DNA of 64,000 nt from the NCBI RefSeq assembly GCF_012272835.1, contig NZ_JAAWWK010000002.1:773451-837450 (forward strand). The letters are read 5' to 3'. The notes under the pieces were generated by a model. The model did no database searches. It was not told the DNA's origin and worked only from the letters and a program-made list of their open reading frames with translations. The translations under genes and the position numbers were made by a program. Source of the DNA: Spongiibacter thalassae (GTDB lineage Bacteria; Pseudomonadota; Gammaproteobacteria; Pseudomonadales; Spongiibacteraceae). Every line of letters begins with the position of its first letter. The stretch's first letter is position 1. This document shows positions 10,092 to 17,015 of this stretch, piece by piece.

Positions 10092-10910
10092 ATGACGGTT
10101 CAGTACTGTTTGCACAATGGTCTAGCGGCGGCGCCGGAACTGGCGGAAAACCGTGGGCTGGCCTATGGCGACGGCGTGTTTGAAACACTGCTGGTGATCG
10201 ACGGCAAACCCCTGTGGTCCACTGAGCACCTGCGCCGCATGGCGCAGGCAGCGGCCAAACTGGGCCTGCATTGCGACGAGCAGTTAATTGGCGCAGAGGT
10301 CGAAGCCGTCAGTCGCCGCAGTCAGGGACGCGGTGTGCTCAAAATTCAACTGTTTCGCGCCGCTGGAGGCCGTGGATACCACGGTGCAAGTGGAGCGAGC
10401 GAGCGTCTGTTGAGCCTGTGGCCGGCCCCGGTGTCTGCGGTGTGGCGTAATGGGGCGAAGGTCATTCTTTGCACCACCCGTCTGTCGGAAAACTATCAAC
10501 TCGCCGGCATCAAACACCTCAATCGCCTCGAGCAGGTGCTGGCGGCCAGGGAAATTCAGCGCGCCGGGGCCGACGAGGGGTTAATGCTCGATACCAGCGG
10601 CGCCTTGATTGAGGGCGGGCGCAGCAATCTGTTTGCCGTGCGTGACGGTATTCTGCTGACCCCCTCACTGCTCAAAAGTGGCGTCCGCGGTATTATGCGC
10701 GAGAAAATCATCGCGGCTGCGGCGGATTTGTCGCAGCCTGTTAAGGTGTGTACGCTCTTTCCGTCCCATATTGTCAGTGCGGATGAATTGTTTCTATGTA
10801 ACAGTGTGTTCGGAATTTGGCCAGTCACATCCGTTGGCTGCGTACATAAGGAAATCGGCCCTGTGAGCCGCCAACTGCAAGCCAGCTTTGAATCCAGTTT
10901 TCATGTTTAA
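10092..10910 (+). CDS. pabC: Aminodeoxychorismate lyase PabC
   Basis: A 272-residue class IV PLP enzyme that releases pyruvate from 4-amino-4-deoxychorismate to give p-aminobenzoate for folate synthesis. The N-terminal GLAYGDGVFETLL is typical, and Lys141 in GIKHLNRLEQV is the expected PLP lysine. Its location between fabF and mltG matches E. coli. The stop overlaps the mltG start by 8 nt, suggesting coupled translation. Confidence 0.93.
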   Translation: MTVQYCLHNGLAAAPELAENRGLAYGDGVFETLLVIDGKPLWSTEHLRRMAQAAAKLGLHCDEQLIGAEVEAVSRRSQGRGVLKIQLFRAAGGRGYHGASGASERLLSLWPAPVSAVWRNGAKVILCTTRLSENYQLAGIKHLNRLEQVLAAREIQRAGADEGLMLDTSGALIEGGRSNLFAVRDGILLTPSLLKSGVRGIMREKIIAAAADLSQPVKVCTLFPSHIVSADELFLCNSVFGIWPVTSVGCVHKEIGPVSRQLQASFESSFHV

Positions 10911-11970
10911 ATTTATTCGTCTTTTTGGCGCGCTATTATTTCCGGCGATTTTTGCCGTGCTGTATGCCGCTTACTACGTGGATGCCTACTTTGACCGCGA
11001 ATTGACGATATCGGGGGACCAGGAAACCTTTATTCTGGAACCCGGTACCGGCTTTTCGGCGACGATGAACGAAGCGGCCCGGCGCGGCTGGCTGCAACAG
11101 GAAGGCGTGCTGAAAATCTATGGTCGTCTGTTCCCGGAGCAAACCGGAATTCGCGCCGGGGAATACCGGATCAGCAGCGGCACCACCGTGCGCCAGTGGC
11201 TGGATATGATGCGCGATGGCGATGTCGTGCGTCATCAGCTGACGCTGGTAGAGGGGTGGAATCTGCAGCAGGTATTGAGCTATTTGTCGGCACAGGAACT
11301 GTTGGCCGAGGAGTCGCTAGCGCCGGGCGAGGGCTTTTGGGCCCAGCTGGGTATTGACGACCCCTTGGCAGAACACCCGGAAGGCCTGTTTTTCCCGGAT
11401 ACTTATGATTATCGGCGGGGCGATAGCCCCAGTCTGATTTTACGTCGTGCCTACCGCCGTTTGGTTGCGGTACTGGAGGAAGAGTGGCAGGCGCGCAGTC
11501 CCGACTTGCCCTATGCAAACCCTTATGAGGCGTTGATTATGGCTTCGATCGTGGAGAAAGAGACCGGGGTGGCCGCTGAGCGCGCGGAGATAGCGGGGGT
11601 GTTTGTTCGCCGTCTGAATCTGGGTATGCGCCTGCAAACCGACCCAACCGTTATCTACGGCATGGGTGATCGCTATCAAGGGAACCTGCGCAGTCGCGAC
11701 TTAAAAGACGGCAGCAATGAGTACAATACTTACCGCATCGACGCCTTGCCGCCCAGCCCGATTGCGTTGGCCGGCAGAGAGGCTATTCACGCCGCACTGC
11801 ACCCGGCCGATGGCGAAACACTGTTCTTCGTTGCCCGTGGTGATGGTAGTCATCAATTTTCCCGAACGCTGGCAGAGCACGAAGCTGCGGTAGATCGCTA
11901 CCAAAAGCGGGGGCGTCGTCGGGATTACCGTTCGAGTCCGCCGCCGGTCAGTGAGGATGGGAAAGAATGA
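10903..11970 (+). CDS. mltG: Endolytic murein transglycosylase MltG
   Basis: A 355-residue inner-membrane lytic transglycosylase that cuts nascent glycan strands and acts as a terminase of peptidoglycan synthesis. A single N-terminal membrane helix (about residues 6-24) is followed by a LysM-like region and the YceG domain. The catalytic glutamate is Glu218 in ASIVEKETG, the same number as in E. coli. ATG at 10903 overlaps pabC by 8 nt; a TTG 15 nt upstream is a poorer choice. The stop overlaps tmk. Confidence 0.95.
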   Translation: MFKFIRLFGALLFPAIFAVLYAAYYVDAYFDRELTISGDQETFILEPGTGFSATMNEAARRGWLQQEGVLKIYGRLFPEQTGIRAGEYRISSGTTVRQWLDMMRDGDVVRHQLTLVEGWNLQQVLSYLSAQELLAEESLAPGEGFWAQLGIDDPLAEHPEGLFFPDTYDYRRGDSPSLILRRAYRRLVAVLEEEWQARSPDLPYANPYEALIMASIVEKETGVAAERAEIAGVFVRRLNLGMRLQTDPTVIYGMGDRYQGNLRSRDLKDGSNEYNTYRIDALPPSPIALAGREAIHAALHPADGETLFFVARGDGSHQFSRTLAEHEAAVDRYQKRGRRRDYRSSPPPVSEDGKE

Positions 11971-14792: not shown

Positions 14793-14828
14793 ACTAATCA
14801 TTTGCCACCCCTGGCTGGAGATTTACCC

Positions 14829-15953
14829 TTGACTGATACCGCCCTGAAAGCCACTGCGCTCAACGCCTTGCACCGCGAACTGGGTGCCCGGATGGTGCCC
14901 TTTGCCGGCTACGACATGCCGGTGCAGTATCCCTTGGGCGTCAAAAAAGAGCATCTGCATACTCGGGCTGAGGCTGGGCTGTTTGACGTGTCGCATATGG
15001 GGCAGATCAGATTGACGGGGCAGGGGATCGCCGAGGCACTTGAGGCCATACTTCCTCAGGATGTGATTGGCCTGCCGGTTGGTCGGCAACGCTATGGCTT
15101 GCTACTGAATGAACAGGGCGGCATTCGCGATGACCTGATGATCGCCAATCGGGGCGACGATTACCTGCTGGTGGTGAACGCTGCCTGTAAGGAAGACGAT
15201 GCACAGTGGCTGCGCCAGTATCTGCCGGCCAATATCGAATTGGAGTTGTTAAGTGGGCAGTCGTTGATCGCCCTGCAGGGGCCTAAGGCACGAGAGGCGT
15301 TGACGCGGCTGCTGCCCGGCGTGGCGAACATGACCTTTATGGATACCGCTTTCATGGAGTGGCAGGGCCTGCCGCTATGGCTGAGTTGCTCGGGTTATAC
15401 CGGGGAAGATGGATTTGAAATATCCCTTGCCGATGCCCATGTGGAAGGATTCGCCCGCCGTCTTCTCGAGGAGCCCGAGGTGGAAGCGATAGGTCTCGGT
15501 GCGCGGGACTCTCTGCGTTTGGAGGCGGGGCTGTGCCTGTATGGTCACGATATGGATCAATCGATTACACCGGTTGAAGCGGGCTTGCTGTGGTCGATAC
15601 AAAAAATTCGCCGACCCGGTGGTGAGCGGGCCGGGGGCTATATCGGCGATCAGCCTGTTGAAGCACAATTGCTGCATGACGATAAAATCAAGCAACAACG
15701 GGTGCTGCTGGATATTGAAGGGCGGGCGCCGGTACGTGAAGACAGCGACATCATTGACGAAGGCGGTCAAAAGGTGGGGCGGGTGTGCAGCGGAGGCTTC
15801 GGTCCAAGCGTCGGTGGACCAATTGCCATGGCCTACATCAGCACCGAGGCGCTGAACGCCGGAGTGTCGGTCTTTGCCAGCGTGCGCGGCAAGGCCATTC
15901 CCGTCAGTGTACGCAAGGCTGCATTTTTTGCCTCTCGCTATTTCCGGGGGTGA
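14829..15953 (+). CDS. gcvT: Aminomethyltransferase (glycine cleavage T protein)
   Basis: A 374-residue tetrahydrofolate-dependent enzyme that releases ammonia and methylene-THF from the aminomethyl-lipoyl H protein. Signature stretches are [31 protein letters not shown] (with the folate-binding aspartate) and [20 protein letters not shown]. The start is TTG at 14829, supported by GGAG 8 nt upstream; no ATG fits. gcvH and gcvP are not adjacent. A GH84 gene starts 3 nt after its stop, so the two are probably co-translated. Confidence 0.92.
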
Positions 15954-15956
15954 ACA

Positions 15957-17015
15957 GTGAGCTTTCACTTGGGGGTCATAGAAGGATTCTACGGCCGTCA
16001 ATGGAGCTGGGCGCAGCGCTTGTCGTTGCCGCCGTTGCTGAAATCCTGGGGCTATCGCAGCTATCTCTATGCGCCCAAGGGCGACACCAGTTTGCGCAGT
16101 CAGTGGCGCACTCCCTTTACCCCGGTCCAGCGAGAAAATCTCGCCGCCCTGGCTAAGGCATGCTGCGAAACTGGCATTGAATGGGGTTTGGGCTTGTCTC
16201 CGGTTGGCCTTCAGGCGGACTATCGGGAGGGTGACCGCGATGCCTTGCGGCAAAAACTGGATGAAATTCAGGTGTTGTCGCCAAACCGCCTGTGGATTTT
16301 GTTTGATGATCTGCCGGCGGGGAATCCCCATCTTGCCACCAATCAATTGGCCGTGGTTGATACAGTGCGCCATCACTGTCCTGAGTTGCAGCTCGCCGTG
16401 TGCCCCAGTTACTACAGCGACGATCCGATACTTGAAGAATTGTTCGGTGCCTGCCCGCAGGGGTATTTTGCCGACTTATCTGACGGCCTTAGCGCCGATA
16501 TTGACCTGTTGTGGACTGGCTCCAGGGTTATCAGCGAGGCCTACAGTGAGCAGGATATGCGCGCTGCCGCCGATAAACTCGGCCGGCTGCCACTGCTGTG
16601 GGATAACTATCCGGTGAATGACGGTCGGCGCAGCAGCCGTTTTTTGAATATCTCTCCTTTTCAGGGGCGCCCGGCGGCCCTGTCCCGGTTGTGCAGTGGC
16701 CACTACGTCAACCCAATGAATCAGTTCCATTTATCCCTTCCGGTCTTGCAGGATCTGCCAAAGGTCTATACTGCACAGGCGGAGTCCTTTGACGAGCGCC
16801 TGGCCAGCGCGTTGGCATCACTTCCCGGCGCACTGGCGGACTTGTTACAGCGACACTGGCAGGATTTTCAGCGACGTGGCCTGGATGGGATGAGCGGCGC
16901 CGAAAAGCAAGTGCTAGCGGCCCGGTGTGATGAGATAGCCCATCCCGCTGCGGTGGAGCTGGCCACTTGGCTGCGTGAGGGCTACCGCTTCGATCCTGAG
17001 TGCTTGACTGAATAG
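15957..17015 (+). CDS. GH84 family protein, O-GlcNAcase/beta-N-acetylglucosaminidase-like, cytoplasmic
   Basis: A 352-residue protein whose first 260 residues match the GH84 catalytic barrel of O-GlcNAcases (NAGidase domain). Visible motifs: GVIEGFYGRQW (6-16), YLYAPKGD with Lys41, the catalytic Asp117-Asp118 pair in LFDDLP, CPSYY (149-153), LWTG (185-188) and WDNYPVND (215-222). Each has a counterpart in the human enzyme active site. The last 90 residues are predicted helical and unfamiliar. There is no signal peptide or membrane segment, so it should act in the cytosol. GTG at 15957 follows CGGGGGTG. The substrate is unknown: glycosylated protein or a GlcNAc metabolite are possible. Confidence 0.85.
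   Translation: MSFHLGVIEGFYGRQWSWAQRLSLPPLLKSWGYRSYLYAPKGDTSLRSQWRTPFTPVQRENLAALAKACCETGIEWGLGLSPVGLQADYREGDRDALRQKLDEIQVLSPNRLWILFDDLPAGNPHLATNQLAVVDTVRHHCPELQLAVCPSYYSDDPILEELFGACPQGYFADLSDGLSADIDLLWTGSRVISEAYSEQDMRAAADKLGRLPLLWDNYPVNDGRRSSRFLNISPFQGRPAALSRLCSGHYVNPMNQFHLSLPVLQDLPKVYTAQAESFDERLASALASLPGALADLLQRHWQDFQRRGLDGMSGAEKQVLAARCDEIAHPAAVELATWLREGYRFDPECLTE

Follow-up and report, generated by a model that had tools for sequence, protein, structure and literature searches.

The product of the short GH84 gene of Spongiibacter thalassae described here is most probably a cytosolic exo-beta-N-acetylglucosaminidase that acts in peptidoglycan recycling as a functional equivalent of NagZ without being homologous to it. 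The gene lies in a window of 64,000 nt (the whole stretch of DNA analysed, from contig NZ_JAAWWK010000002.1). In the proposed pathway, lytic transglycosylases would release GlcNAc-1,6-anhydroMurNAc(-peptides), AmpG would import them, and the GH84 enzyme would cleave off the non-reducing GlcNAc by substrate-assisted catalysis through an oxazoline-type intermediate, with Asp117 orienting the 2-acetamido group and Asp118 acting as acid/base; AnmK would then phosphorylate the anhydroMurNAc. The oxazoline-type intermediate and these roles of the first and second Asp are those of GH84 enzymology in general. For the S. thalassae enzyme we infer substrate, activity and mechanism, and likewise the displacement of NagZ by GH84. 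What would be new is a functional variant within GH84, which works like NagZ but is not a member of the NagZ family. No report of GH84 as a peptidoglycan-recycling enzyme was found in the open-access literature searched; subscription papers were mostly outside this search, and earlier print is possible.

Features of the locus are collected in Table 1. A run of five G is located just upstream of the GTG start. The sole Pfam family found in the protein was PF07555 (NAGidase; residues 6-269, E 7.9e-49), and the HMM check suggested in the preliminary description gave 167 bits against a cut-off of 25. Only NF041654 (86 bits) was matched in the NCBIfam scan of the protein, with no match to NF003740 (NagZ, GH3). 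The motifs EGFYG, YAPKGD, LFDD (Asp117/Asp118), CPSYY, LWTG, WDNYPVND and NPMN follow one another in the order first described, and the active site is apparently intact, as had been claimed: E9, K41, D117, D118, C149, Y153, W186-G188, W215-N217, N221, D222 and N252 do not vary among 52 aligned sequences. The motif spacing had also been taken to be that of animal O-GlcNAcases, which did not hold. Relative to Trichoplax OGA and OgOGA, about 8 residues are missing from the loop that follows the Asp pair, and the stretch after CPSYY differs too.

Asp117 and Asp118 correspond to D174/D175 of human OGA and D119/D120 of TtOGA in the numbering given in an excerpt of PMC4683255. The predicted model has an OGA-type barrel fold with the active-site residues intact and aligns with OgOGA only to OgOGA residue 389. 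The C-terminal stalk is reduced in this predicted monomer, and a short helical region remains (DSSP helices 257-270, 278-286, 291-307, 314-325 and 330-339). The FDPxCLT(D/E) tail is conserved in many, not all, of the aligned relatives. The stalk of human OGA and the sister subunit form a peptide cleft, according to a passage of PMC5610315; a reduced stalk would fit a small soluble substrate.

Table 1. Features of the S. thalassae locus and positions of the protein of about 430 aa found near GH84 in other loci
Feature	Position	Strand	Basis or remarks
gcvT aminomethyltransferase	14802..15953	+	NF010093, 507 bits (cut-off 459); ends 3 nt upstream of GH84
MltG/YceG-type endolytic transglycosylase, same core stretch	10888..11970	+	PF02618, 263 bits
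Short GH84 beta-N-acetylglucosaminidase, predicted	15957..17015	+	352 aa, GTG start
Catalytic Asp117-Asp118 pair, predicted	16305..16310	+	Alignment; invariant in 52 sequences
WDNYPVND sugar-pocket motif, residues 215-222	16599..16622	+	Alignment
C-terminal region, residues 257-352: barrel end and rudimentary helical stalk, then FDPxCLT(D/E) tail	16725..17012	+	DSSP of model, alignment
Protein of about 430 aa adjoining GH84	L027; L031:7091-8476; L047:6645-7949; L077:7042-8337; L084:6996-8348; L112:6311-7603
Protein of about 430 aa farther from GH84	L026:10755-12071

The enzyme is apparently cytoplasmic, as judged from its sequence. A signal peptide was judged by a simple hydropathy rule (an 11-residue stretch with a mean of 2.0), and by this rule none was seen in the S. 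thalassae protein or in the relatives examined, in agreement with the preliminary description. No such stretch was found in the first 40 residues of 52 aligned rows, 35 of which begin at the matched region. When the longest possible ORF was taken for each of the best 80 of at least 591 named loci, 20 residues or fewer preceded the EGFYG-type motif in 60, and no hydropathy stretch above 1.72 preceded it in the remaining 20.

The S. thalassae genome (estimated to be 100% complete) had no NF003740 match at E ≤ 1e-3 and no GH20 match at E ≤ 1e-10; with these two families searched, the GlcNAc-anhydroMurNAc hydrolase step is otherwise vacant. AnmK (512 bits) and AmpG (502 bits) were both found, and AmpG is present in all 21 genomes of the family to which S. 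thalassae belongs. MltG/YceG-type transglycosylases, one of which is encoded in the same core stretch as GH84, make 1,6-anhydroMurNAc ends. No MurNAc gene was found near the S. thalassae GH84 as far as the neighbourhood was scanned.

We searched 195 genomes of the order (Pseudomonadales) for GH84, NagZ (NF003740), AnmK, GT41 and GH20. NagZ was counted at E ≤ 1e-30 (the curated cut-off is 207 bits), and 30 further genomes with only weak GH3 matches were not counted. GH84 was found in 54 genomes and NagZ in 110, or 102 over the curated cut-off. The two occurred together in one genome of the 195 (Fisher p 4.7e-24, a test that treats the 195 as separate, while by kinship they are not independent). 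In this sole double carrier (G108) NagZ scores 425 bits, and the GH84 match is confined to a fragment of 59 codons at 45 bits. Four families contain both genomes with GH84 only and genomes with NagZ only, at 2 and 5 (f7), 1 and 3 (f8), 2 and 6 (f14) and 4 and 3 (f37), with zero double carriers. NagZ is full-strength in f7 and f14 and divergent in f8 and f37 (186-213 bits, four of six under the cut-off of 207). Within genus g61, GH84 is carried by G140 and NagZ by G093; within g9, GH84 is found in one genome (G066), a divergent NagZ below the cut-off in three others and neither enzyme in one. A tree built from the AnmK sequences of 80 of the 195 genomes was poorly resolved and needed 17 changes of GH84. 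Only four contrasts fell on its well-supported branches, where NagZ changed in the same way in 0, in the opposite way in a mean of 2.7 and showed no difference in 1.3 (sign test p 0.25, underpowered).

Replacement of nagZ by GH84 in place was rejected, as it was not seen in the loci compared on the GH84 side (L106, L108, L110 and L112) or on the NagZ side (L107, L109, L111, L113 and L114); genes were named by eye, and the gene calls for L108 did not include GH84. In L107, L111 and L114, the surroundings of nagZ include what by eye look like lexA, topA and a TetR regulator gene; GH84 is located elsewhere. A protein of 160-174 aa is encoded directly beside nagZ in two of these (L107:8934-9416 and L114:9648-10172) and by eye resembles a YkuD-type L,D-transpeptidase/carboxypeptidase. 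At G107:C2:398658-399626 a NagZ match (445 bits) is interrupted by six stop codons, and AnmK is still present in that genome.

AnmK was found in 174 of the 195 genomes and in 53 of the 54 with GH84, the exception being G095. Among the 85 genomes lacking NagZ, it was present in 52 of 53 with GH84 versus 15 of 32 without (p 2.5e-8). The latter 15 genomes, seven of them in family f36, have AnmK and neither of the two enzymes, so the absence of NagZ is not always accompanied by GH84. All seven f36 genomes (G055, G085, G111, G134, G155, G174 and G193) carry AnmK without GH84 or NagZ (E ≤ 1e-30), and six have GH20; these genomes may use yet another glucosaminidase.

The strongest gene context of GH84 was found on plasmid pABRDHK22 of Novosphingobium sp. 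EMRT-2 (L197). One strand carries genes for GntR, MurQ, a sodium:solute symporter, a TonB receptor, AnmK and PP2C, and the other for a SIS/NagB-II-like protein, NagA, GH84, D-lactate dehydrogenase (Dld) and a BadF-type NagK-like kinase. The GH84 gene (354 aa, 37.7% identity to the S. thalassae protein) overlaps nagA by 4 nt and lies 17 nt before dld. Scores over the cut-off were obtained for AnmK (449 against 352), NagA (267 against 226) and Dld (855 against 391), and scores under it for NagB-II (302 against 430) and NagK (238 against 370); MurQ reached 327 bits over a subfamily cut-off of 168 and 252 under the equivalog cut-off of 302. A second plasmid (L198) has counterparts of all 11 genes, in unchanged order, at 67-90% identity. 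MurQ (329 bits), a symporter and a PBP4B-like protein (PF00144) occur together with GH84, a NagK-like kinase and PBP4 in the Sphingomonas locus L089; a further locus (L085) combines AnmK, Dld, a PBP4B-like protein, GH84, a NagK-like kinase and PBP4. In Erythrobacter (L046) a related symporter and a PP2C-like gene are beside GH84, with no MurNAc gene within the stretch examined. The murQ-murR-murP-amiE-nagZ-namZ operon of Bacillus is a MurNAc catabolic cluster. Like it, the Sphingomonas locus L089 groups MurNAc catabolism with genes for a beta-lactamase-fold protein and for an N-acetylglucosaminidase, the GlcNAc-releasing glycosidase being GH3 NagZ in Bacillus and, putatively, GH84 in Sphingomonas.

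MurQ releases D-lactic acid (an excerpt of PMC5371407), which would explain the presence of dld, and the clusters thus appear to serve a MurNAc-bearing substrate. GH84 is the sole annotated glycosidase in the Novosphingobium cluster, which makes it the likeliest candidate there for the step freeing GlcNAc from (anhydro)MurNAc. The MurNAc clusters with GH84 are all in Alphaproteobacteria, their GH84 proteins are 36-41% identical to that of S. thalassae, and the two Sphingomonas genomes also have a NagZ-like GH3 (213 and 224 bits). Weaker hints are a dapE gene that follows GH84 directly in L106, and dapE with a VanY-domain peptidase gene near GH84 in Aeromonas (L054). A zinc-type recycling L,D-carboxypeptidase, LdcV, is known in A. 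hydrophila (a passage of PMC8649774). The preliminary description had raised the possibility of an unrecognised GlcNAc-recycling step, and the GH84/NagZ exclusion, the presence of AnmK and AmpG and the MurNAc clusters argue for it.

The exclusion was also followed outside the order. NagZ was searched in 50 named GH84 carriers from the best 80 of at least 591 loci (completeness of the genomes unstated), comprising 25 Gammaproteobacteria by record title, several of them MAGs, and 25 others. It was found over the cut-off in 14 of the 50 and at E ≤ 1e-15 in 23, all of which were also below 1e-30. None of the gammaproteobacterial carriers had NagZ over the cut-off and one had it at E ≤ 1e-30 (A. 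sobria, 192 bits); the corresponding counts for the others were 14 and 22 of 25. The 14 were Alphaproteobacteria, unclassified Pseudomonadota, one Bdellovibrionales and one Burkholderiaceae. In a sample of 299 genomes of the phylum, NagZ was found in 253 over the cut-off (280 at E ≤ 1e-30) and GH84 in 10. NagZ is also present in five of these 10, including all four outside the order (G382, G388, G400 and G433). The five without NagZ all belong to the same order as S. thalassae, and for this reason the p of 1.2e-4 for the phylum is not independent evidence. That the sampled GH84 genomes of the phylum outside the order all keep NagZ counts somewhat against repeated displacement. On balance we lean towards the view that muropeptide N-acetylglucosaminidases include a second, OGA-type class, which took the place of GH3 NagZ more than once in Pseudomonadales and probably also did so in Aeromonas and other Gammaproteobacteria.

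It could be argued that GH84 acts mainly on environmental, non-anhydro fragments (GlcNAc-MurNAc) or on some other cytosolic GlcNAc conjugate, and that the exclusion of NagZ reflects lineage history. The clusters with a TonB receptor and a symporter do have the look of scavenging, the AnmK tree is poorly resolved, and GH84 and NagZ co-occur outside Gammaproteobacteria. However, the kinase present in the clusters is AnmK, whose distribution in the order follows that of GH84; AmpG is encoded in the S. thalassae genome, and the exclusion recurs within families f7 and f14. We consider this explanation improbable.

We think it similarly doubtful, to the point of being improbable, that the protein is a cytosolic chitobiase or general GlcNAc-oligosaccharide hydrolase for chitin catabolism. 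The NagA, NagB-II-like and NagK-like genes of the Novosphingobium cluster would serve chitin too, but the MurQ, AnmK and D-lactate dehydrogenase genes in the same cluster point to (anhydro)MurNAc. GH20, absent from S. thalassae, is not associated with GH84 in the order (13 of 54 genomes with GH84, 28 of 141 without; p 0.56), and a role in chitin catabolism leaves the GH84/NagZ exclusion unexplained. A chitin link was rejected on GH20, GH18 chitinases being outside the search.

Protein O-GlcNAc turnover, also raised in the preliminary description, was not borne out: a role as an intracellular O-GlcNAcase that strips bacterial proteins of O-GlcNAc, like that suggested in Thermobaculum terrenum, would agree with the OGA family and predicted OGA fold of the enzyme, with the intracellular TtOGA/TtOGT pair (an excerpt of PMC4683255) and with the name 'protein O-GlcNAcase' in the source records of two relatives (P0025 and P0037, among the best 120 of at least 1898), but is very unlikely, as no PF13844 (GT41/OGT) match at E ≤ 0.01 was found in the S. 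thalassae genome, GT41 is unassociated with GH84 in the order (5 of 54 GH84 genomes, 22 of 141 others; p 0.35), the stalk that builds the peptide cleft in the human enzyme (PMC5610315, in the passage cited above) is reduced, and both the NagZ exclusion and the MurQ/AnmK clusters are left unexplained.

NagZ (GH3, NF003740) resembles the S. thalassae GH84 in predicted compartment, place in the pathway (after AmpG and before AnmK), reaction and size (about 350 aa), but it belongs to an unrelated family with a different chemistry. NagZ works through a covalent glycosyl-enzyme (an excerpt of PMC3920638), and human OGA uses the acetamido group of the substrate as nucleophile (an excerpt of PMC10636738). 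By homology the S. thalassae enzyme should do likewise. Among cytosolic GH84 enzymes of bacteria, TtOGA is the closest precedent; in an excerpt of PMC4683255 its authors name T. terrenum as the only CAZy organism in which GT41 and GH84 are both present without signal peptides. TtOGA and OgOGA are about 95-120 residues longer than the S. thalassae protein, have a fuller stalk and share 27% identity with it in the structural alignment, and TtOGA was proposed to act on O-GlcNAc proteins with a GT41 partner, for which S. thalassae has no match. Human OGA has a full dimer stalk and a pseudo-HAT domain, whereas the S. thalassae protein has a short helical stalk region in the predicted monomer and no pseudo-HAT domain, and its genome has no OGT match. 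BtGH84 and NagJ/CpOGA share the GH84 catalytic domain but are longer, multi-domain proteins. NagJ is a secreted pathogenicity factor (an excerpt of PMC4683255), whereas the S. thalassae enzyme is short and apparently cytosolic.

The start of GH84 3 nt after gcvT was confirmed, and the core-gene context claimed with it reads as an inherited position. The adjacency is real: all 21 genomes of the family carry exactly one PF07555 match, each directly preceded by gcvT on the same strand, and the neighbour is also conserved at L022-L027, not in other lineages. Among the best 80 of at least 591 loci, GH84 is near a PilZ gene and holB in 19, of which 18 are also near tig, and gcvT is absent beside GH84 in 14 of the 19. 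GH84 thus keeps this position even where gcvT is missing; the position looks inherited, and the gcvT neighbour probably carries no functional information. A functional link between gcvT and GH84 was rejected as positional on the basis of these loci. Neighbour scans revealed no common partner of GH84 in other lineages, where the neighbours differ. Several Pseudomonadales encode a protein of about 430 aa (KPWGxEIWYTG ... LQHGVRTIEFQTPVYER) immediately after GH84. To the eye this protein resembles type I phosphomannose isomerase, and it contained no Pfam family at E ≤ 0.05 in L112, L047 and L077 or at 1e-3 in L031.

Relatives of the S. thalassae protein numbered at least 591 in named genomes, and the best 80 were analysed as named loci. 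These 80 match across roughly all 350 residues, and Spongiibacteraceae, Halioglobus, Haliea, Marinobacter, Aeromonas, Parvibaculum, Sphingomonas, Elusimicrobia and cyanobacteria are among them. In the protein database, at least 1898 relatives were found at E ≤ 1e-3 among 8000 candidates scored; the two named 'protein O-GlcNAcase' are mentioned above. A phage origin was rejected, as no match was found in 50,697 phage records. In the plasmid collection 87 records matched, 67 of them from Enterococcus and all below 60% identity; query coverage reached 80% in only 3 of the 87, and the matches are probably longer GH84 enzymes. On a plasmid of Deinococcus psychrotolerans (L200), a GH84 gene (415 aa) has an oligopeptide ABC transporter, a MurR/RpiR regulator and a GH3 gene as neighbours.

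NagZ is conserved in peptidoglycan recycling within Gram-negative bacteria (an excerpt of PMC5371407) and has been pursued as an inhibitor target (an excerpt of PMC3920638). If the proposed function is correct, a large part of Pseudomonadales would use an unrelated enzyme with a different chemistry for this step, and NagZ-based models and inhibitors would not apply there. Cell-wall recycling in these bacteria would instead be blocked by inhibitors of human OGA and not by selective NagZ inhibitors. Thiamet-G is such a human-OGA inhibitor and is expected to block GH84, which selective NagZ inhibitors are not. The labels 'protein O-GlcNAcase' or 'hyaluronoglucosaminidase' on these GH84 records would be misnomers, and the presence of GH84 alone would be poor ground for inferring bacterial O-GlcNAc signalling. 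A cytosolic role would then fall to a broad group of GH84 proteins whose present name comes from a protein-modification enzyme of eukaryotes.
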